A stretch of DNA of 64,000 nt from an uncultured Verrucomicrobiae bacterium (GCA_938005615.1 CALLMV010000023.1:1-64000); one strand, 5' to 3'. Counted from the stretch's first letter, positions 4,406 to 35,327 are shown. The notes: generated by a model from the sequence alone, not told the origin. A program made the numbers and translations.

Positions 4406-5281
4406 TCAACCATCACTTGCTGTCAAAAACCCAAACACCTGCTTACCCCACAATGCTGAATAAATCGGCAACTCATCGTGCCGACCCTGCTCGAGCTCGA
4501 TATACAAAAGTCGTGTATTCTCCTGCAAAGCATCGCGCAGAGCACGGGCGTGGCGCACAGGAATCACCTCATCCTCTGCGACTGCCACAATCGCCACAGG
4601 CACAGCAGCCCCACGGAGGCGTGGCACACTTTCGAAACGATCGCTCATCAACCAGCCCAGCGGCAAAAACGGCAACCTCCCGCGCGCCACATTCAACACA
4701 CTGTCGTAAGGCACAGCCAGAATGATCCCGCGCACCAACTCCGGCACCCTCTCATACACACCAGCCGCGACACCCGAACCCAAACTTTCGCCCAACACAA
4801 AAACAGGCGCAGCCAGCTCACGGCACCAAACCTCGAACGCCTCTGTTCCTGCCTCGATCAGTGCCTCTTCACTCGGCCTACCGCTCCGGCCACCGTAGCC
4901 CGGATATTCTACCACGCGCACCTCGCCAAAACCCATCCCCTGCAGTGTGCGCACCCAGTTCAAGCGCCAAGTTGCACTCCCCGAGTTCCCGTGCAGCATC
5001 AACAACGGCGGGCCGTCTACACGTTCACGCGCCTTCACAATCCACCCCATACGCTCACCCGCTTCTGACACCCACTCCACCCAACCTGCCTCGAATGCCA
5101 TCTCATCCATGACAGAGCTGCTCATCGGGAAGTAGATAAAACTGCGCTCACACCCTACAACCAATAAAACCAAGCCCACATACAAAAGTCCCAAACGCCA
5201 CACGCTCCCAAAATTCACGATCCAACGACTCCAGCCCGACATGCTCAAGACATAAACCGCTCCAACCAAATCGCAACTCAA
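4406..5281 (-). CDS. membrane-anchored/exported alpha/beta hydrolase
   Basis: Hydrophobic N-terminus ending LLVVGC; LLMLHGNSGS oxyanion region; VFVLGESLGSGVA nucleophile elbow; GRHDELP C-terminal His. Confidence 0.75.
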   Translation of the reverse strand: MSCDLVGAVYVLSMSGWSRWIVNFGSVWRLGLLYVGLVLLVVGCERSFIYFPMSSSVMDEMAFEAGWVEWVSEAGERMGWIVKARERVDGPPLLMLHGNSGSATWRLNWVRTLQGMGFGEVRVVEYPGYGGRSGRPSEEALIEAGTEAFEVWCRELAAPVFVLGESLGSGVAAGVYERVPELVRGIILAVPYDSVLNVARGRLPFLPLGWLMSDRFESVPRLRGAAVPVAIVAVAEDEVIPVRHARALRDALQENTRLLYIELEQGRHDELPIYSALWGKQVFGFLTASDG

Positions 5282-5328
5282 CTGGCACCCCTTGACACAA
5301 CCGCAAAATCAAAGAGGTTATACAAAGC

Positions 5329-5718
5329 ATGAAACTTCTCGCTCTAGTCATGACCTCTGTTCTGGCCCTTGGCCAGGGTCATGGCCTTAAAGCAACCTCG
5401 CAAGAAACATACTTCCCAGCATCCTCCGAAAACTGTTGCTGTGGAAATACGCAGTCTCTCGAAGCTGATCAGAACACCTGCTGCCTCAATAAAAACTTCG
5501 AGCAGCCGAATAACAAATCATGCAATTTCGATAATAAATGCTGCGACGCCTGCCTCTGCTCCAACATCTCCCTGGGCGGCTCCCCGAACGCCGCACTCTT
5601 CGTAAAAAACATGATCTCACCTGGAGCTTCCCGGATTGCCCTCTTCACTTTGCCTGACAACAACTCTCTGCGTTCGTTCACCACTCCCCCCGATTCCCCG
5701 CCACCGAAGCTCGCATAG
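5329..5718 (+). CDS. exported cysteine-rich protein, unknown function
   Basis: 129 aa ORF with a signal-like N-terminus (MKLLALVMTSVLALGQG) and 10 Cys within residues ~34-80 (CCCG, CC, CC, CLC). Confidence 0.6.
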   Translation: MKLLALVMTSVLALGQGHGLKATSQETYFPASSENCCCGNTQSLEADQNTCCLNKNFEQPNNKSCNFDNKCCDACLCSNISLGGSPNAALFVKNMISPGASRIALFTLPDNNSLRSFTTPPDSPPPKLA

Positions 5719-5823
5719 CATCCCCCTGAGTTGTAAATCCGAAGTTAAACAACCTCAAAATAAGCGTTGCTTACTCGGATTTGTGGAAACGATAACACCA
5801 ATATTATCCAGAAAGGTAATGTT

Positions 5824-5997
5824 ATGAAAAAGATCATTCTGACTTTGGCCGGGCTTATTCCCGCCGCTGTCTTCGCCTGCGCTGTGGCTGGCTCCTCCTG
5901 CAAATGCGGTGAGGATTGCACCTGCTGCGGCTGCTGCGAAGAAGGCGTGGAATGCACCTGCGGTGATAACTGCGAGTGCCCCTGCTGCAAAGAGTAA
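5824..5997 (+). CDS. small exported cysteine-rich (metallothionein-like) protein
   Basis: 57 aa from ATG 5824 (the ORF track starts upstream at 5767): signal MKKIILTLAGLIPAAVFA, then CKCGEDCTCCGCCEEGVECTCGDNCECPCC, 14 Cys in total. AGAAAGG just upstream and a terminator just downstream. Confidence 0.75.
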   Translation: MKKIILTLAGLIPAAVFACAVAGSSCKCGEDCTCCGCCEEGVECTCGDNCECPCCKE

Positions 5998-6021
5998 AGC
6001 TCGCTAGACATCACTAACATC

Positions 6022-6058
6022 AACCCCCGGAACCTAAAAACTCCGGGGGTTCTTTTTT
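6022..6058 (+). terminator. Rho-independent terminator of the Cys-rich gene
   Basis: Perfect 10-bp stem AACCCCCGGA/TCCGGGGGTT (6022-6031, 6042-6051) followed by CTTTTTT. Confidence 0.9.
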
Positions 6059-6203
6059 AATAACTCATGTAACTTAAATACAAAACTTATAACACAAAAA
6101 TAATCTTAATAAGTTACATTTAATAAATTCACTCAAGGTAAATTAAAAATTACAGCATAACATCAATCAGTAGCATCGATATTAGCTATAGTTTGAAGAA
6201 GTT

Positions 6204-7247
6204 TTATTCTTCGATCCCTAAGAATACCAAAGGCTCTGCGGGTTGGAATTTCTCAGAGCTTTCACCAAAATAAACTTCCCCCTTGGAAGCCCCTAGCTTC
6301 ATCACTGGCGCACCTTCAGAAAAATTCAACTTTTTCAAATCCACCCAGAACACATTCGGCTCCGTGACGCGATCAAGGTAATACACCGAATTTTTATGAT
6401 CCGAAACCGCACGCCACTGTGTGGTCGAAATATTTGGTTGGTCAGGCGAAGATATGCCGTAAGGCACAGAGCAGTTTCTGATCACGCTAAACACAGCGGC
6501 CAAAGCTTTTTTCAGGTCCGATGTTTGCGGGATGGCGTTGACGTAAAACGATGCCCGCACGAAGCGATCCGCTGCCCGGTTAGTGCCCGGCAGCATGGTC
6601 ATGCCTCCGATCTCTTGCCAATAGTCGTTGAGCGTGAGCTGTTTTTCAAACTGCGGTGAGTTGGTCATCACCGTATAGGATTTATCGTGGTGGATCACCA
6701 GGCGCCCTTCGATATATTCCAAGATCGCGCTATCTCCCGAAGAGTCAGAGAGCGACATGTGCAGGGGAACAAAAATCTCCGTGCCCGGGATTTTATCGGA
6801 CACCACGACAAACTCCTCCTTCGAAAGGGCAGTCACCGCCTCGGCCACACTCGCAAAATTTTCCAGCACATACTGCACCCACAAGGCCACGCTCAGCCCC
6901 GGGCGGCTCCCGTCAAACTCCGGATACTGCGTCTCCACAAGCCACAGCACATTTGCCACCAGGCCTTTTTCGTTCATGCCGTCGGCCACTGCACAGTCGA
7001 AAGAACTTGCCGAGAGCGTGCCATACTTTGATACCCACTCGATGGTGTTTTTTCCGGTCAACCCGGTGCGTTTCATGCCGCGAGGAAACACCCAAAGGTC
7101 CGTGGGAATATCCACGCGAAAATCCATCGTCCTCGCAGTAATTACGGTGTTATCTGGTCCGTTATAAACAAACCGCGTGCAGGCCGACACTTTGGAGAAA
7201 CCTGAAACAAAGAATAATGCGATAGTAAGAACAACTGTTTTGATCAT
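6204..7247 (-). CDS. exported choloylglycine hydrolase / penicillin V acylase family (linear amide C-N hydrolase)
   Basis: MIKTVVLTIALFFVSGFSKVSA|CTRFVYNGPDNTVITARTMDF with the N-terminal nucleophile Cys directly after a signal-like segment. Start moved to Met16 of the ORF. Confidence 0.85.
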   Translation of the reverse strand: MIKTVVLTIALFFVSGFSKVSACTRFVYNGPDNTVITARTMDFRVDIPTDLWVFPRGMKRTGLTGKNTIEWVSKYGTLSASSFDCAVADGMNEKGLVANVLWLVETQYPEFDGSRPGLSVALWVQYVLENFASVAEAVTALSKEEFVVVSDKIPGTEIFVPLHMSLSDSSGDSAILEYIEGRLVIHHDKSYTVMTNSPQFEKQLTLNDYWQEIGGMTMLPGTNRAADRFVRASFYVNAIPQTSDLKKALAAVFSVIRNCSVPYGISSPDQPNISTTQWRAVSDHKNSVYYLDRVTEPNVFWVDLKKLNFSEGAPVMKLGASKGEVYFGESSEKFQPAEPLVFLGIEE

Positions 7248-7433
7248 AAAGCCAGTGTTCCCACAAAACAGATAAAGTCGAGCGGAAATCATCAGCCTAA
7301 ACCGGCAGAGGAGAATGTGACTTGGCTAACTTGTGAAAACTTAAATTCGATGATATACAAATCCTTGCTGAACTAACATCTGAGAACACGAAGTTAGTAA
7401 CTAAGAAACAGCCAAGTTAATAAATGTCTCAGG

Positions 7434-8384
7434 CTACTCGTTTACCAAGCCCTGCCCCGGTGCGGAAGCCGGCTCTGATCCTGGCGGATTTTCCTCTACA
7501 ACATCATCATCCAGCCACGCGGGATCATCCGCCAAAATACTCAACCCCGGCGCGGGACTAATCACCCGCACCCGTTGAATCGGTGCTCCAAAATATAGCT
7601 CCTCGTCCAGGGGAATCGCGCGCGCGACCACCACGCCTTCATCCTCGATTGACAGCGCACGCGGCGGCGGCTCTCGTACAGTAAAGCGGCATGTCGCAGA
7701 TAAATATGGACCGCCCAACGGCCTACCATCCTCGCCCACAATCTCCGCTCGCAGGATGTGCTCACCAGGCGGCAGTTCAGTGAAAAACACCGGACTATTT
7801 TGCGATAAATAACCCGTAAAGTCCCCTACCTGATATTTTAGCTTCAAGCCGCGCTCCCCGAGCATCAGGTTTCTCGTCGTGAAATCAAATAATACCAAAC
7901 GCGAATCCTCATAATTAAAAATCCCCTGCGGAGAAGCTACGGTGAGCAGAGGCATTTTTTCCGGGCTCGCGGTCTCCTCCTTCCTCAGCACATGCAACAG
8001 GGTGATCACCTGCGACTCTGGCGCACGCAGCATCGCCCCGCGCGGGCTCACCAAAAACGCCCGCACCAAATGCGTGCCCGGTCGCAGGTCGCGAAACGTC
8101 GCCGGCTTGAGCACATGGTCCACCGTTTCACGCAGAGTGCCTCCCACTAGCACCACAATGCGAAACTTATCCGGTGCCACATCCACACCCTTCACCTCAA
8201 AAAACAAATCCACATCCCGCGATTCTAACACGCTCTCGGGAGCCGGCGAGACGAGCCGCAGCACTGCCTTCTGCTCCACCGGCGGCGGCAATCTGCGCGA
8301 GGCTTGCCCGTAAACTTGCGGCAACACAGCACAAAGCACCGCAATGAGCAGGGCCAGTTTTGCGGCCTGGGAATTAACAGACAT
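7434..8384 (-). CDS. exported hypothetical protein with beta-rich/Ig-like repeats
   Basis: Signal-like N-terminus (LALLIAVLCAVLPQVYGQA), repeated PGEHILRAEIV/PGTHLVRAFLV motifs. Confidence 0.6.
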   Translation of the reverse strand: MSVNSQAAKLALLIAVLCAVLPQVYGQASRRLPPPVEQKAVLRLVSPAPESVLESRDVDLFFEVKGVDVAPDKFRIVVLVGGTLRETVDHVLKPATFRDLRPGTHLVRAFLVSPRGAMLRAPESQVITLLHVLRKEETASPEKMPLLTVASPQGIFNYEDSRLVLFDFTTRNLMLGERGLKLKYQVGDFTGYLSQNSPVFFTELPPGEHILRAEIVGEDGRPLGGPYLSATCRFTVREPPPRALSIEDEGVVVARAIPLDEELYFGAPIQRVRVISPAPGLSILADDPAWLDDDVVEENPPGSEPASAPGQGLVNE

Positions 8385-8489
8385 TGGAAAAATTACTTTT
8401 CATCTCCCACAGCGTCAACCAAGCCGAACGCCAGATCCGAATCACAAAAAATCATCGCCACAACGCCCACTCCTCGACAATAAACTCTC

Positions 8490-28878: not shown

Positions 28879-30063
28879 TTGCGCCTTGAATGGAGCATGG
28901 CCGATGAAGTGACATTGTTAAGAGCGCGTGCTCTTGCACCCTGGGCACAAACGGTGACAGATAGTCGCGGACGTGAAACTATTGAGGAGGTACCCGCCTT
29001 TCATGACGAATTCTCTTTCGATATTTCCAAAATTCTCGGCTCTCAAGCATGGCAGAGCTTGGGCGGAAAATTCCTGAGGATTGGCGGCGGAGGCCCCAGT
29101 CTCGCCCAAATCGCACAATCTGCCGCTGAGATGGCACGCCTGATCGCCCGCGTGCTGCACTGCAATGAGGAATTAACCACTGCAGCAACTCTAGCGCATT
29201 TCTTGGGCATGGCCCCCGGTGGTCATCTTGGCAGACGGACCCTGGAATGGATGATGCGGCCCCATGGAGAATACTCCGTTTTGGGACAAGCGCTGCGCGT
29301 TTTAGAAGAGGTTGAGGTCATCCACCCAGATTATAATGGATTGAATTTGAGTTGGGAGATACGGGAAGCACTGGGAGCCACAAGGCCTGGCAGCGGGCGC
29401 GTGGATGTACAGTTAGGCTTTGCGCCAGAATCTGTTTGTGTTGAAGCGCAGGTAGCCCGGGTGGGTGTTCATTTGGGGATGTTTCTAGCAATGCTCGAAC
29501 ATGGTTTTGCGAGCAGTTTGGTGTTCTCTGAGATGTTGGAGGAGTGTTCCCTCTGGAGATGGGCCGAGACTTCGGTAGCGAAAGAATACAGAAGGGTGGA
29601 AGATAGAAGGAGTCTGCCACTTTGTTTTAAGCGCATTCAAGACCGCATCATCAGCGAGGTTTGCCGTGACTCACTTGAGAAACTGGAAACCACAGCACCT
29701 GGTAGCGCAGACGCAGTAAGAAAGACTCCGATTTCTTTTGTTAAGCTCCCGTCATCTACTCTCTCAGAAATTCAGGCCGTTGATGAAGTAGTGCGTACGC
29801 AAATATTCTATGCCAGCGATGATGCGCGTATTCGCACTAAACAAATGGAACGCTACAACCAGTTGTTTGAATTGCTGGTGCATAACACAACGCTACTTGG
29901 GCCGCATGCGGGACATAGACTGAAAAAACAAACTGCACAGCGCGTAGTCTGCGATCAGTGGTGCATGATGAACGACCATGCGCTTAATGAAATGGTGCAG
30001 GATCTGCTGGGTCTGGATTCAGAGCAATACATTGTTCAAAGCTCCCTGCCCATCCAGACATAA
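28879..30063 (+). CDS. dGTPase-related protein with degenerate HD motif
   Basis: Overall dGTPase layout (SKILGSQAWQSLGGK, ARVLHCNEELTTAATLAHFLGMAPGGHLGRRTLEWMM, NGLNLSWEIREAL) but HD ligands replaced. Start may be at internal ATG 28897. Confidence 0.75.
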   Translation: MRLEWSMADEVTLLRARALAPWAQTVTDSRGRETIEEVPAFHDEFSFDISKILGSQAWQSLGGKFLRIGGGGPSLAQIAQSAAEMARLIARVLHCNEELTTAATLAHFLGMAPGGHLGRRTLEWMMRPHGEYSVLGQALRVLEEVEVIHPDYNGLNLSWEIREALGATRPGSGRVDVQLGFAPESVCVEAQVARVGVHLGMFLAMLEHGFASSLVFSEMLEECSLWRWAETSVAKEYRRVEDRRSLPLCFKRIQDRIISEVCRDSLEKLETTAPGSADAVRKTPISFVKLPSSTLSEIQAVDEVVRTQIFYASDDARIRTKQMERYNQLFELLVHNTTLLGPHAGHRLKKQTAQRVVCDQWCMMNDHALNEMVQDLLGLDSEQYIVQSSLPIQT

Positions 30064-30138: not shown

Positions 30139-31299
30139 GTGAAGGTTTTTGCGGACATCGTTTACTGTGGCGGCGGGCGTGTGCTAGAGCCCGGGCTGGT
30201 CGTGGTGTCTGATAACCTGATAGTAGATGTCAGGGAGGCAAAAACTGGTGATGGGGCTGATGTGCTGCTCAGAGGCTGTGCTCTGTTTCCTGGCTTGGTA
30301 AATGCACACGCCCATATGGATTATACGTTATTTCAAGAAGCTTTCCTGCCGACCAAGAGTTTTACTGCATGGCTTTCGATGATGAACCAGACCAAGCGCC
30401 ACACGTCCGAAAGCGAGATCGCAGAAGGAATTCGCAAGGGTATTGCAATGGCAATCAGGAGCGGCACGACGAGCTTGGTAAACATCTGTGCGTATCCGCA
30501 TCTGGTGCCAGCAGTTGAGGAGGGACCGCGTTGTTGGCAGGTGCTTGAGGCGACGGATGTGAACCGAAGCTTCGTGTTTCCAGATCTGGAAAACTTCCAA
30601 GGCGTATCACCACATGCGCCTTACACGGCATCAACTGAACTGTATCGTAGGTCGAAGCGTACAGCTCTCCAGCGGGGTTTGCTGTTCACAACTCATGTAA
30701 ATGAATCCAATGAAGAGATGGAGATGTTCACCCTCGGGACGGGGGAGCTATACGAAATGATGCTTGGGCTGGGTAGGGACATGAGCGATTGCGGGTATGC
30801 CTCTGGCTTAGCGCTTTTGCTAGAAGAAGGCCTGCTACCTCAAGGCTCGTTGCTCGCACATGTGAATTTTTGTGAATCTTGGGAGATGGCAAAATTACGC
30901 GATGAGTGTCATACTGTTGTACACTGCCCATCGTGCCATAAGTTTTTCAGCCGCTCGAAGTTTTCAGCTAAGCAATATCTTCGGGCGGGGGTCAATTTAG
31001 CCCTCGGCACCGACAGTGCAGCAACGGGAAGTTCGTTGAGCATGATTGAAGAGATGCGGATTTTCAGTGAATTGCAGCCGGACTTTAGCATGGCTGAGAT
31101 TTTTCTTTTGGCTACAGAGCACGGTGCGCGAGCACTCGGCTTACAGCACAACATCGGAAAGATTGCACCTGAATACTTCGCATCGCTGTTTGCTGTGCCT
31201 CACGAAGGACGTGCTCCTTTGCATGCGCTTTTTGCCCATCGGGGCGAAGTACGGTGGGTGATGGTGGAGGGTCGTGTGGTTTATGGAGGCGAGCCGTGA
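30139..31299 (+). CDS. metal-dependent amidohydrolase (aminodeoxyfutalosine deaminase / chlorohydrolase-like)
   Basis: FPGLVNAHAHMDYTLF, FTTHVNESNEEMEMF, VVHCPSCHKFF, LALGTDSAATGSSLSMIEEMR. Confidence 0.82.
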   Translation: MKVFADIVYCGGGRVLEPGLVVVSDNLIVDVREAKTGDGADVLLRGCALFPGLVNAHAHMDYTLFQEAFLPTKSFTAWLSMMNQTKRHTSESEIAEGIRKGIAMAIRSGTTSLVNICAYPHLVPAVEEGPRCWQVLEATDVNRSFVFPDLENFQGVSPHAPYTASTELYRRSKRTALQRGLLFTTHVNESNEEMEMFTLGTGELYEMMLGLGRDMSDCGYASGLALLLEEGLLPQGSLLAHVNFCESWEMAKLRDECHTVVHCPSCHKFFSRSKFSAKQYLRAGVNLALGTDSAATGSSLSMIEEMRIFSELQPDFSMAEIFLLATEHGARALGLQHNIGKIAPEYFASLFAVPHEGRAPLHALFAHRGEVRWVMVEGRVVYGGEP

Positions 31300-31338: not shown

Positions 31339-32322
31339 TTGGGATATGCGTTTGCGATGAGGTTGATAGCTTTCTCTGGGGCGCTCATTACTGTGTTCTG
31401 GCTTTCTCAATTGAGAGTATTGGCAGACGCGCAAAGCCTAGCTCAAGATCGTGAAAATCAGATTTTTCCGCACTCAAATATTCTGCAAGAAATAGAAAAC
31501 ACTAACCAAAAGCTTGGAAGTGCCTCAATCTTATCGCAGGATGAAGCATCAGATCTATCCAAGCCAGTGACGATCACATTTGGTCTGCTTGGTAGTCCTT
31601 CTTTTGAATTTGCAGGTGGGTTGTCACCAGACATTTTTTGGCGCAGGGATGCATGGCGCATGGAGAGTGATTTCACTTTCTTTGGGATATTAACTGGGGA
31701 TGAGTTGCCCGCAGATTCATCCTTGAAAGGTTTACAGGCGCCTGACGGTTCTCACTTTGCTTACATCCGTAACTTAAAAAAAAACGATGCCCGTTGGCTG
31801 AGTGGGGTGGAGCTCATCGCTGGAGCGTACTATTTGCTACGTGGTAAGCTGGCAGTGGCTCTTGAGGCAGGTGAATCTGGTGGAGCAAGTCTTGGAATAT
31901 TTAACGGCCCTGTGAGCGATTTGGTGCAAGACACGGGCGGGACTTGGGTTGATCGTGAGTTATACTTTCGGGTAGGCCCAGAAAATCGTTTTGCAGAAGT
32001 CGCGCTGAGACTTGGCTTTTTTGGAAAGGATGTACGGGGTGAGGCGGCGTTCGACCAGATTGATTTGAGGAGAATATCACCGGAGGAAATTCCTCTAGGT
32101 GTCAGAGTCTTCGATTTGGGTGGCGAGCCGCGGAATTCTGTTGTCTTTAGGGAAAGCTCTTCTGCCTCGGAGTTGCGCAAAGGCGCGCAACCTTTAGCAC
32201 TCGTGGTTGGAGTGGGTGCTTTTGTTTTTGCTGTCTTCGCGACGTTGTTCTTGCTTGTTCAACTGGACCGTTGGGAGGGGCGCGAGGCTAAGAGCAACGA
32301 CGAGAACAAATCCGGAAAATGA
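31339..32322 (+). CDS. exported, C-terminally membrane-anchored protein of unknown function
   Basis: N-terminal signal-like segment, beta-rich middle, C-terminal TM (LALVVGVGAFVFAVFATLFLLVQL) then charged tail; ATGA overlap with the next gene. Confidence 0.65.
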   Translation: MGYAFAMRLIAFSGALITVFWLSQLRVLADAQSLAQDRENQIFPHSNILQEIENTNQKLGSASILSQDEASDLSKPVTITFGLLGSPSFEFAGGLSPDIFWRRDAWRMESDFTFFGILTGDELPADSSLKGLQAPDGSHFAYIRNLKKNDARWLSGVELIAGAYYLLRGKLAVALEAGESGGASLGIFNGPVSDLVQDTGGTWVDRELYFRVGPENRFAEVALRLGFFGKDVRGEAAFDQIDLRRISPEEIPLGVRVFDLGGEPRNSVVFRESSSASELRKGAQPLALVVGVGAFVFAVFATLFLLVQLDRWEGREAKSNDENKSGK

Positions 32323-35300
32323 AAACTACTGCGAGTGAAATACCATCTTGGTTGGTGATGCGGATGGTATTTGCGGCTCTTATTGGTGTGTTGCTGAGAG
32401 TGATACTGTCTCGGCTTCCCGGACATGATGTTGACATGGGTTGTTTCATGGCGTGGTCGGCCGATATTTATGAACGGGGAACCGCGCACTTTTTTCGTGA
32501 AGGTTATTTCTGTGATTACCCGCCGTTTTATCTTTATGTTCTGTGGCTCGTTGGATGGGTGAGAAGTTTTTTTCCTGGAGAAGTTGCTAGTTTGCTCATC
32601 AAGCTGCCTCCGATTGCGGCCGATATAATTTTGGGGCTCTTGCTCTGGAAGGCGTGTCGTGGGGTGTTCACGGAAAAAGCAAGGTTTTTGATATTTTGTG
32701 CGATCATGCTTTATCCTCCGCTGCTACTCAATAGTGCTGTTTGGGGCCAGGTAGATTCTGTGACCGGAGTACTATGCCTAGCCTGCGCCCTTCATTTGCG
32801 AGGGGGACGCTTGCTTTTGGCAGGTGCGTTGTTTGGCGCGGCAATGGCTATGAAGCCTCAAGCGTTCTCCACTGCGGGCATGTTTGTCCCTGCCTTTGTC
32901 GTCGCCTGGTCTCGAGGAAGATTGGGGAGAATACCAGGGGCAGTCGCTTTGGCGATACTGGTGTTCGTTTTATTAGCGATGCCGTTTGCCGACGGCCGTG
33001 GGATTGTTCCGGTGTTTGAACGATATATTGCAATGTATGAGACTTATACCATATCGTCTTTCAATGCACCGAACTTTCTCTGCTCCATTGGCGGTAATTT
33101 GAAGTCGGAGGAAAGCGTAGTTGCTGGGATTTCACTTGCTGTTTGGGCCAAACTCTTTCTTGGCTTGAGCCTTGGGGCAGGCTTTGCCGTGGCTTTGCGT
33201 GGGCGGAGGGGGCAAATGCCAGAGCCTCTCTTGCTGGGAGCTTATTGCTCGATGTCGTTTTTCTTCTTTGGCCCACGAATGCATGAGCGTTATTCTTTTC
33301 TGGCTTTGATTTTTCTTTTGGGGGCTTGGCTAGTGAGCAGGGACAGACGTTTACTGATAGCTCACCTTCTTTTGACCGTCACTTTTGTTTTGAATGTGGG
33401 ACAAGTTTATTTGATGAGTTTAGAAAGAAAGTATCACATTCCCAGTAACGACGTTTTGTTGCTGACGCTTTCTTGGATAAACTGGATGCCGTTGCTTTTG
33501 ATTGGATTGGTCCTGTTCTTTCCGAACAGCAGACAGAATTGTGCTCAAAACGTGTTGTTGAGGGAAAGAATTAGGCTGGAACCTTGGATGATACGGGAGC
33601 GGCGAATTGTGGCGTTGTGTGTATCTGTACTTTTGGTGGCGAGCGGGACGTTGTTTCTTTGGAGGTTGGGCAGCATCAAGGCGCCTGTCACCGAGTGGGT
33701 TGCGGCGGATTATCCGGTTGTGATACTAGATTTGGGGCGAGACGTCGAGCTTGCTTCCGTGATGGTGTTTGCTGGCCCTGTTCATAACGGCTCGATCATT
33801 ATCGAAACTTCTTCGAATGGTAGGATTTTTGAACACAATATGATTATTGATCAACCTTCAGTGTTCAATTGGCATGAACGACCGCTGAACTCCGTGGCTC
33901 GGTTTGTTCGCGTGCGCACACGTGTGCCCCAGACAAGAATTATGGAAATTGTTTTTCGTGACAAGTTGGGAAGAATTGTGCCAGTCGCCTCCGTAGAACC
34001 ACCTTTAGCTAGGGCCATCGCGGACGAGCCGAACACCGCACCTGATCATCCTTCATCCTTCAACAGTACCTTTTTTGATGAGATCTATTTTGTCCGCACG
34101 GCTTATGAGCATTTGTATGAGCTGCCGATTTATGAAAACACACACCCGCCGTTGGGCAAGGTCGTTATCAGCGCTGGAATTGCTGTTTTGGGTTTAAATC
34201 CATTTGGATGGCGTCTTCCCTGTGCCCTAATGGGTATGTTATCGGGAGTGCTTTCTTTTTTTCTAGCTCGCACAATATTTCGCTCAAACGCAGCAGGACT
34301 TTTAACGGGGCTGATGTTTGGATTGGATGGCCTTCTGATAAGCCAAAGCAGAATCGCGACTGTGGACGCGATGATAACATCATTCACGTTAGCTGCATTT
34401 TGCTTTGGCTGGTGGTTTTCCCAAACTCACCTCCGGGATGGATGGTACAGAAGTTGGTGGAAACTGATGTTAGCCTGGTGTTTTCTCGGTTGTGCAGGCG
34501 CTACAAAATGGAATGGATTTTTCAGCGCACCGGCACTGCTGCTCGTATGTCTGAAACCCTGGATTTCGCGGTTGCTTTTCAGAAAGAAAGAAGCTGAAGA
34601 TTCTTGGAAAAAAAATCTCTTGCACGCAGCCATTGTTCCTGCCTGCGGATTAATCATGGTGTGTGTGGTCTATTTTGGAAGCTATGTCTTTGTGTTATCT
34701 AAAGAACAATCACGAGATTGGAATTGGGTCTTAGCTCAACCACATCATATATTTAGTTACCATTCAGGTGGCATCCTAGAACACCCTTACTCATCCCCGT
34801 GGTGGAGTTGGCCGCTAATGCTTAAAAGCCTCTGGCAGCATACAGATAAACTGCAAGAAACCGGACTAAGTGCTGAAAGGGTTTCACTCGGAAATCCACT
34901 TTTGTATTGGATGGCATTTCCTAGTTTTCTTTGTTTTTGCTTTTTTGCCTTTGTAAGGTTTTTCAAAAAAAAGGAATTAGACTTTTTGTTAATCCTAGCA
35001 ATTTTGTTAAGTTGTGTTTTACCGTGGATCTTAGTCAAGAGAAGTACATTTATCTATCATTTTTTGCCTATGCTTCCTTTTTATGTGATGACAATCACAG
35101 CGTTGGTTTGGGTAGCTTCTAAAGAAATGATACTTAAAAAAACTGCTTTAGGTTTAGGATCTCTTGTTTTGGCAATCTCTTTACTTGGTGTAAGTTTGTT
35201 CTATCCGTTGCAAGCAGGTATAACAACAGATAGTAGTTATCGCAGGGAAATGATGTGGCTAAACATTTATAATAATCAGGATGCAAATAAAAAATCCGGC

Positions 35301-35327
35301 TGGTTTGGCTGGGTCTGGAACAACTAA
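32319..35327 (+). CDS. fused membrane glycosyltransferase: N-terminal GT-C unit + discoidin-like segment + PMT (GT39)-like unit
   Basis: 1002 aa. N-half GHDVDMGCFMAWSADIYERG, DYPPFYLYVLWLVG. Middle DLGRDVELASVMVFAGPVHNGSIIIETSSNGRIFEH. C-half FDEIYFVRTAYEHLYELPIYENTHPPLGKVVISAGI and AATKWNGFFSAPALLLV, typical of PMT. Confidence 0.85.
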   Translation: MKTTASEIPSWLVMRMVFAALIGVLLRVILSRLPGHDVDMGCFMAWSADIYERGTAHFFREGYFCDYPPFYLYVLWLVGWVRSFFPGEVASLLIKLPPIAADIILGLLLWKACRGVFTEKARFLIFCAIMLYPPLLLNSAVWGQVDSVTGVLCLACALHLRGGRLLLAGALFGAAMAMKPQAFSTAGMFVPAFVVAWSRGRLGRIPGAVALAILVFVLLAMPFADGRGIVPVFERYIAMYETYTISSFNAPNFLCSIGGNLKSEESVVAGISLAVWAKLFLGLSLGAGFAVALRGRRGQMPEPLLLGAYCSMSFFFFGPRMHERYSFLALIFLLGAWLVSRDRRLLIAHLLLTVTFVLNVGQVYLMSLERKYHIPSNDVLLLTLSWINWMPLLLIGLVLFFPNSRQNCAQNVLLRERIRLEPWMIRERRIVALCVSVLLVASGTLFLWRLGSIKAPVTEWVAADYPVVILDLGRDVELASVMVFAGPVHNGSIIIETSSNGRIFEHNMIIDQPSVFNWHERPLNSVARFVRVRTRVPQTRIMEIVFRDKLGRIVPVASVEPPLARAIADEPNTAPDHPSSFNSTFFDEIYFVRTAYEHLYELPIYENTHPPLGKVVISAGIAVLGLNPFGWRLPCALMGMLSGVLSFFLARTIFRSNAAGLLTGLMFGLDGLLISQSRIATVDAMITSFTLAAFCFGWWFSQTHLRDGWYRSWWKLMLAWCFLGCAGATKWNGFFSAPALLLVCLKPWISRLLFRKKEAEDSWKKNLLHAAIVPACGLIMVCVVYFGSYVFVLSKEQSRDWNWVLAQPHHIFSYHSGGILEHPYSSPWWSWPLMLKSLWQHTDKLQETGLSAERVSLGNPLLYWMAFPSFLCFCFFAFVRFFKKKELDFLLILAILLSCVLPWILVKRSTFIYHFLPMLPFYVMTITALVWVASKEMILKKTALGLGSLVLAISLLGVSLFYPLQAGITTDSSYRREMMWLNIYNNQDANKKSGWFGWVWNN

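Follow-up and report, generated by a model that had tools for sequence, protein, structure and literature searches.

The gene pair and its setting

A 64,000-nucleotide stretch of DNA from an uncultured Verrucomicrobiae bacterium (the window) raises the question of what is done by a polypeptide that appears to hold two membrane glycosyltransferase units and is translationally coupled to a membrane-anchored exported protein. Both genes are on the plus strand, at 31339-32322 (327 aa, the partner) and 32319-35327 (1002 aa, the enzyme); the two reading frames and the ATGA overlap were found exactly where the initial annotation had placed them. The partner may start from the ATG at 31357 (321 aa) instead of the TTG at 31339. 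The features used below are as follows.

31339-32322, plus strand: partner gene (signal or TM, CBM4/9-like jelly roll, TM), 327 aa from TTG
31348-31404, plus strand: partner N-terminal hydrophobic segment, signal peptide or TM anchor, aa 4-22 (hydropathy; long model helix)
31591-32124, plus strand: partner CBM4/9-like jelly roll, about aa 85-262 (phmmer, Foldseek)
32203-32259, plus strand: partner C-terminal TM helix, aa 289-307 (hydropathy; model helix 283-321)
32319-32322, plus strand: ATGA stop/start overlap of the partner and enzyme genes (sequence)
32319-35327, plus strand: fused double GT-C glycosyltransferase, 1002 aa (ORF, Pfam, AlphaFold2, structure alignment)
32346-33569, plus strand: N-terminal GT87/ALG6/PimE/PIG-M-like GT-C unit, aa 10-417 (Pfam GT87, VIA-align)
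32433-32435, plus strand: Asp39 in the GHDVD loop after TM1 of the GT87 unit (invariant in 52/52 full-length alignment rows)
33582-35252, plus strand: C-terminal GT39/PMT-like GT-C unit, aa 422-978, including PMT_4TMC (Pfam; Z 38.4 to Pmt4)
33582-33659, plus strand: first TM helix of the PMT unit, aa 422-447 (Pmt structure alignments start at 424-426; model helix)
33681-33998, plus strand: CBM32/F5-8C-like beta-sandwich, about aa 455-560 (profile, Foldseek)
34077-34082, plus strand: PMT catalytic DE motif, Asp587-Glu588, first outer loop (invariant in 71/71 rows)

Upstream of the pair are lipA-like, dGTPase-like and amidohydrolase genes, and downstream are a yicC-like gene and other housekeeping genes; neighbors without a family scan were named by eye. 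No glycan genes were found among the window neighbors of the pair. The dGTP triphosphohydrolase-like protein (28879-30063, plus strand) scored far under the curated cut-offs; its Pfam HD match was marginal (E 0.12), and the active site may be divergent or altered. The amidohydrolase (30139-31299, plus strand) is kin to aminofutalosine deaminases and other deaminases but reached no equivalog cut-off, and its gene stops 40 bases ahead of the partner gene.

Two GT-C folds in one polypeptide

The proposal that the 1002-aa protein holds two GT-C units, the second of them PMT/GT39-like, was borne out. Pfam matched GT87 at aa 67-309 (E 1.4e-7, 32 bits, cut-off 25), PMT at aa 605-784 (3e-18, 66.6 bits, cut-off 22.7) and PMT_4TMC at aa 811-982 (1e-12, 48.3 bits, cut-off 32.4), all above the curated cut-offs. 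The AlphaFold2 model, for which 70 Bacillota relatives were used, reached a mean pLDDT of 89.6 and confirmed two complete predicted GT-C folds rather than one. Structure alignment with VIA-align (scores given as Z) matched model residues 15-411 to ALG6 (29.9), 11-416 to PIG-M (24.4) and 4-404 to PimE (21.2), and residues 424-1002 to fungal Pmt4 (38.4, 429 residues aligned, 2.7 A). The nearest solved folds are thus lipid-phosphate-sugar enzymes of the PimE/PIG-M/ALG6 type for the N-terminal half and protein O-mannosyltransferases for the C-terminal half. The latter half shares with eukaryotic Pmt1, Pmt2 and Pmt4 the fold over 425-429 residues and the DE motif in the first loop, at 17-19% identity. 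A later loop of the eukaryotic PMTs bears a MIR domain; none was found in the PMT unit of the enzyme, which has a CBM32-like domain in its first loop.

Whole-protein phmmer of the enzyme against the PDB gave no match. For the NCBIfam protein O-mannosyltransferase equivalog NF058602, whose cut-off is 800 bits, the score was 54.9, and the enzyme is therefore placed in the wider GT39/PMT family and not among the orthologs of that equivalog. Asp39, likely the catalytic aspartate of the GT87 unit by analogy with other GT-C enzymes, and Asp587-Glu588 of the PMT unit are invariant among the relatives aligned, so both halves look catalytically competent from their sequence. The PMT residues H609-P-P-x-G-K614, R632, R678 and D683 are also invariant in 71/71 rows. 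No other GT87 or PMT family matches were found in the window genome, which is about 76% complete.

A carbohydrate-binding-like domain in the PMT loop

A discoidin/F5_8-like segment had been described as linking the two units; its fold was upheld and its role as a linker was not. The family profile matched the CBM32 structure 4a42 at 3.1e-6, and Foldseek matched the beta-sandwich to 4a42 and other CBM32/F5-8C domains (E about 0.02-0.07, probability 1.00). Since the TM helix at aa 422-447 precedes the domain and the DE motif comes after it, the model places the beta-sandwich within the first outer loop of the PMT unit. This placement is supported by many Bacillota proteins that consist of TM-CBM32-PMT alone and align with the enzyme from about aa 430 to 982. 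Two CBM32-like domains were seen in the PMT loop of three Bacillota fusions (L058, L071 and L084).

Relatives in Bacillota

Genome contigs scanned with the single window protein gave no match, and loci were instead found with a DNA pattern derived from the PMT motif AYE-x8-E-x-THPPxGK. The pattern yielded at least 119 loci, a list that is not a census; the group is Bacillota wherever a record title names one, and other phyla may also carry the family. A complete GT87 start was present in the same ORF in 58 of the at least 119 PMT ORFs, collinear with the window protein. These fused homologues (L017-L135) have a unit order identical to that of the window enzyme, to which they are mostly 26-31% identical over the full length; identity to relatives overall is about 23-31%. 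Strong profile matches were detected in 14 genomes of a 199-genome Bacillota sample, two of them full fusions, one of which is in the centre genome of the sample. A fusion unique to the window was rejected, as the same architecture recurs in Bacillota.

The GT87-CBM32-PMT architecture is widespread in Bacillota and apparently undescribed. We found no published description of GT39-GT87 fusions in the open-access literature, although closed papers may differ. The initial annotation had suggested that the pair could be a previously uncharacterised unit. This wording is too broad, as the architecture is common in Bacillota and the C-terminal module resembles Cbes_1864 of Caldicellulosiruptor bescii in layout.

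The modules are also divided between genes in several ways. CBM-GT87 is followed by CBM32-PMT at L091, L092 and G448 and by CBM-CBM32-PMT at L064 and L118, and a lone CBM protein lies ahead of CBM-CBM32-PMT at L127. GT87 and CBM32-PMT units are neighboring separate genes in three sampled genomes (G448, G578 and G605). The matching stretches in these three genomes hold apparent stop codons, which may stem from decay or from the joining of frames. In two Paenibacillus genomes, the fused gene (1280 aa at L134) is overlapped at its start by a gene for a protein of about 665 aa (L098, 217-2220, plus strand; L134, 4853-6838, minus strand); the 665-aa protein of L098 matched the PMT profile weakly and no NCBIfam family.

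These arrangements bear on whether the two halves share a task. Forty-eight of the at least 119 PMT ORFs lack a GT87 unit, 33 of them being complete on the N side, and some sampled Bacillota genomes have a GT87-module match and no PMT match at an equally strict threshold; each half may thus act independently of the other. The halves could then have unrelated jobs that the fusion merely co-localises, or the GT87 half could have a different lipid-linked substrate. We consider this unlikely, since the modules recur joined or side by side in various splits (GT87-CBM32-PMT in one chain, CBM-GT87 followed by CBM32-PMT, or unfused GT87 beside CBM32-PMT), which argues for one pathway.

The partner protein

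The partner layout proposed earlier, with an N-terminal signal, a beta-rich domain and a C-terminal TM helix, agrees with our analysis, and the beta-rich domain is a CBM4/9-like jelly roll. Foldseek of the partner model matched a jelly roll of the CBM4/16/61 type, with a probability of 1.00 to several CBMs and E about 1e-6 to 1e-5. Pfam CBM_4_9 was matched by 15/23 family members (best 3.6e-7) but not by the window partner itself, and whole-protein phmmer of the partner against the PDB gave weak unrelated matches only.

A single-sequence phmmer search with the partner against the 5215 ORFs of the listed loci picked out, at best with 5.9e-14, the N-terminal domain of long fusion proteins. Among the at least 119 loci listed, 15 of the 58 complete Bacillota fusions have the partner-like domain ahead of GT87 in a single chain. 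It was not seen, among the matches listed, in the remaining 43, so the domain appears to be optional. In whole-genome searches, the partner matched exactly once in each of five Bacillota genomes that carry the domain, always within or next to the glycosyltransferase, and had no match in five other Bacillota genomes. The iterated family profile is partly circular and its partner score was not used; no such circularity affects the phmmer search or the whole-genome test.

Judged by these comparisons, the partner is a detached N-terminal domain of a CBM-GT87-CBM32-PMT family: the CBM4/9 domain is fused or absent in the Bacillota fusions, whereas in the window it is encoded by a separate, overlapping gene. 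Fusion in one chain supports a functional link between partner and enzyme. A check of whether the partner is conserved with the enzyme thus did not refute the initial proposal: conservation took a stronger form than expected, namely fusion, in the 15 homologues that have the domain. By hydropathy, the window split should fall in a supposed cytoplasmic loop, and the topology would therefore be kept, with the short tail after the C-terminal TM helix predicted to be cytoplasmic. We infer that partner and enzyme may pair stoichiometrically.

Distribution and origin

The fusion was absent from 386 sampled genomes of the window's own phylum, where isolated GT-C relatives are present. The tree placed the window protein outside the Bacillota groups, at the end of a long branch. 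A recent transfer from any of the sampled Bacillota lineages finds no support in this tree, as the window protein lies inside none of them. Because its long branch joins another long branch, the origin is left between two readings, and the fusion may reflect old presence followed by losses or transfer from an unsampled lineage.

The long branch, the low identity to every relative (about 23-31%), the absence from every other genome sampled in the phylum and a lower G+C at the 3' end of the enzyme gene would also fit a non-functional or decaying import. The frames are nonetheless open, the catalytic residues are intact, the genes are coupled and the partner domain is retained, and we regard decay as very improbable.

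Pathway clues

PgfS-like GT2 proteins belong to a class of enzymes that make lipid-linked sugars. A PgfS-like GT2 gene was present at 24 of the at least 119 loci, and ten whole genomes, picked partly for PgfS adjacency, contained one to three such genes each (E <= 1e-30). From these numbers we infer that adjacency of PgfS-like genes to PMT loci exceeds chance. In the window genome, a single PgfS-like gene of moderate score lies on a different contig from the pair, and no PgfS gene in the layout of the Streptococcus mutans Pgf operon was found in the operon of the pair. PT-repeat protein linkers, a classical glycosylation substrate, are rare in the window genome, with four pattern matches versus one for the control, too few to argue from.

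Elsewhere in the window genome (L171; G000:C13:10000-20000), at 4437-7153 on the plus strand, an ArnC/GtrB/PgfS-like GT2 gene overlaps that of a 580-aa GT-C-like membrane protein by ATGA. Beside them lie a GT4-like gene and, at 7000-8439 on the minus strand, a gene whose NlpC/P60-like product is secreted and has TP-rich linkers. Apart from the GT2, these families were assigned by eye, and the locus is perhaps a second surface-glycosylation locus.

Comparison with known systems

Three bacterial systems share parts of this architecture. The GT39 protein Cbes_1864 of C. bescii (556 aa) has a carbohydrate-binding domain in loop 1, and its deletion abolishes glycosylation of the secreted enzymes (PMC6151902). 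By the published description, the CBM32-PMT module of the window enzyme and many Bacillota homologues have its layout (PMC6151902), but no GT87 unit or CBM4/9 domain is reported for Cbes_1864, whereas the window enzyme has a GT87 unit and its partner a CBM4/9-like domain. In mycobacteria, a GT39 PMT starts O-mannose chains and the GT87 enzyme PimE extends them (PMC12757957). The actinobacterial PMT (Rv1002c type) and PimE resemble the two halves of the window enzyme in this division into starting and extending enzymes that use lipid-phosphate sugar donors (PMC12757957), but they are separate proteins and not one chain with carbohydrate-binding-like domains. S. mutans PgfS and PMT-like PgfM1 serve the Pgf operon (PgfS-PgfM1-PgfE-PgfM2), which modifies surface proteins; as at some Bacillota loci, a PgfS-like GT2 is encoded there beside PMT-like membrane proteins (PMC5856776). 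PgfM1 and PgfM2 are, however, separate proteins, and the window pair has no adjoining PgfS gene. The glycans of C. bescii and S. mutans are reported to contain galactose and GlcNAc, respectively, and are not clearly mannose (PMC12757957, PMC5856776). O-mannosylation, as suggested in the initial annotation, is one candidate reaction for the window enzyme.

The precedents also bear on the acceptor. The enzyme could act on a surface polysaccharide or a lipid-linked glycan, with a glycan as acceptor for the PMT-like half and polymer bound by the CBM-like domains. Two carbohydrate-binding-like domains are attached, and ArnT, a GT-C enzyme with lipid A as acceptor, is among the structural matches of the C-terminal half (Z 25.8). 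GT87/PimE also makes lipid-linked mannosides. Protein O-mannosyltransferases nevertheless match that half far better (Z 36-38), including the PMT_4TMC region, and the genetic precedents for the closest layouts are in protein glycosylation (PMC6151902, PMC5856776), leaving a glycan acceptor doubtful.

Proposed function

The PgfS adjacency and the Pgf, Cbes_1864 and PMT/PimE precedents together favor two-step protein O-glycosylation. We propose, at a probability of roughly 0.5, that the two genes encode one extracytoplasmic membrane enzyme in two chains that would start and extend protein O-glycans; the acceptor, the order of steps, the sugars and the pairing of the chains are those suggested by homology and gene arrangement. 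The PMT half would take a sugar off a polyprenyl-phosphate carrier and attach it to Ser/Thr of proteins leaving the cell, after which the GT87 half would draw on a second carrier to add another sugar. Both the loop domain (CBM32-like) and the partner (CBM4/9-like) would face the same compartment as the active sites and, by putative binding, probably keep the acceptor or the growing glycan near them. The position of the pair alone among housekeeping genes and the location of the best lipid-sugar synthase candidate on another contig count against this proposal, as do the rarity of PT-repeat linkers, the Bacillota genomes with a GT87 match only and the sugars reported for C. bescii and S. mutans.

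More tentatively, single polypeptides that start (GT39) and extend (GT87) a protein O-glycan outside the cytoplasm, with their own carbohydrate-binding domains, may occur across Bacillota and also in one or more distant lineages. In mycobacteria, the studied case, O-glycan initiation and extension from lipid donors are carried out by separate proteins. If the proposal is correct, point mutations in D39 and in D587/E588 could separate the two steps, opening the assembly of bacterial O-glycans to direct tests. The proposal would also supply an annotation for a protein family known only by its parts in the databases used here, and may account for short glycans on Bacillota surface and secreted proteins.
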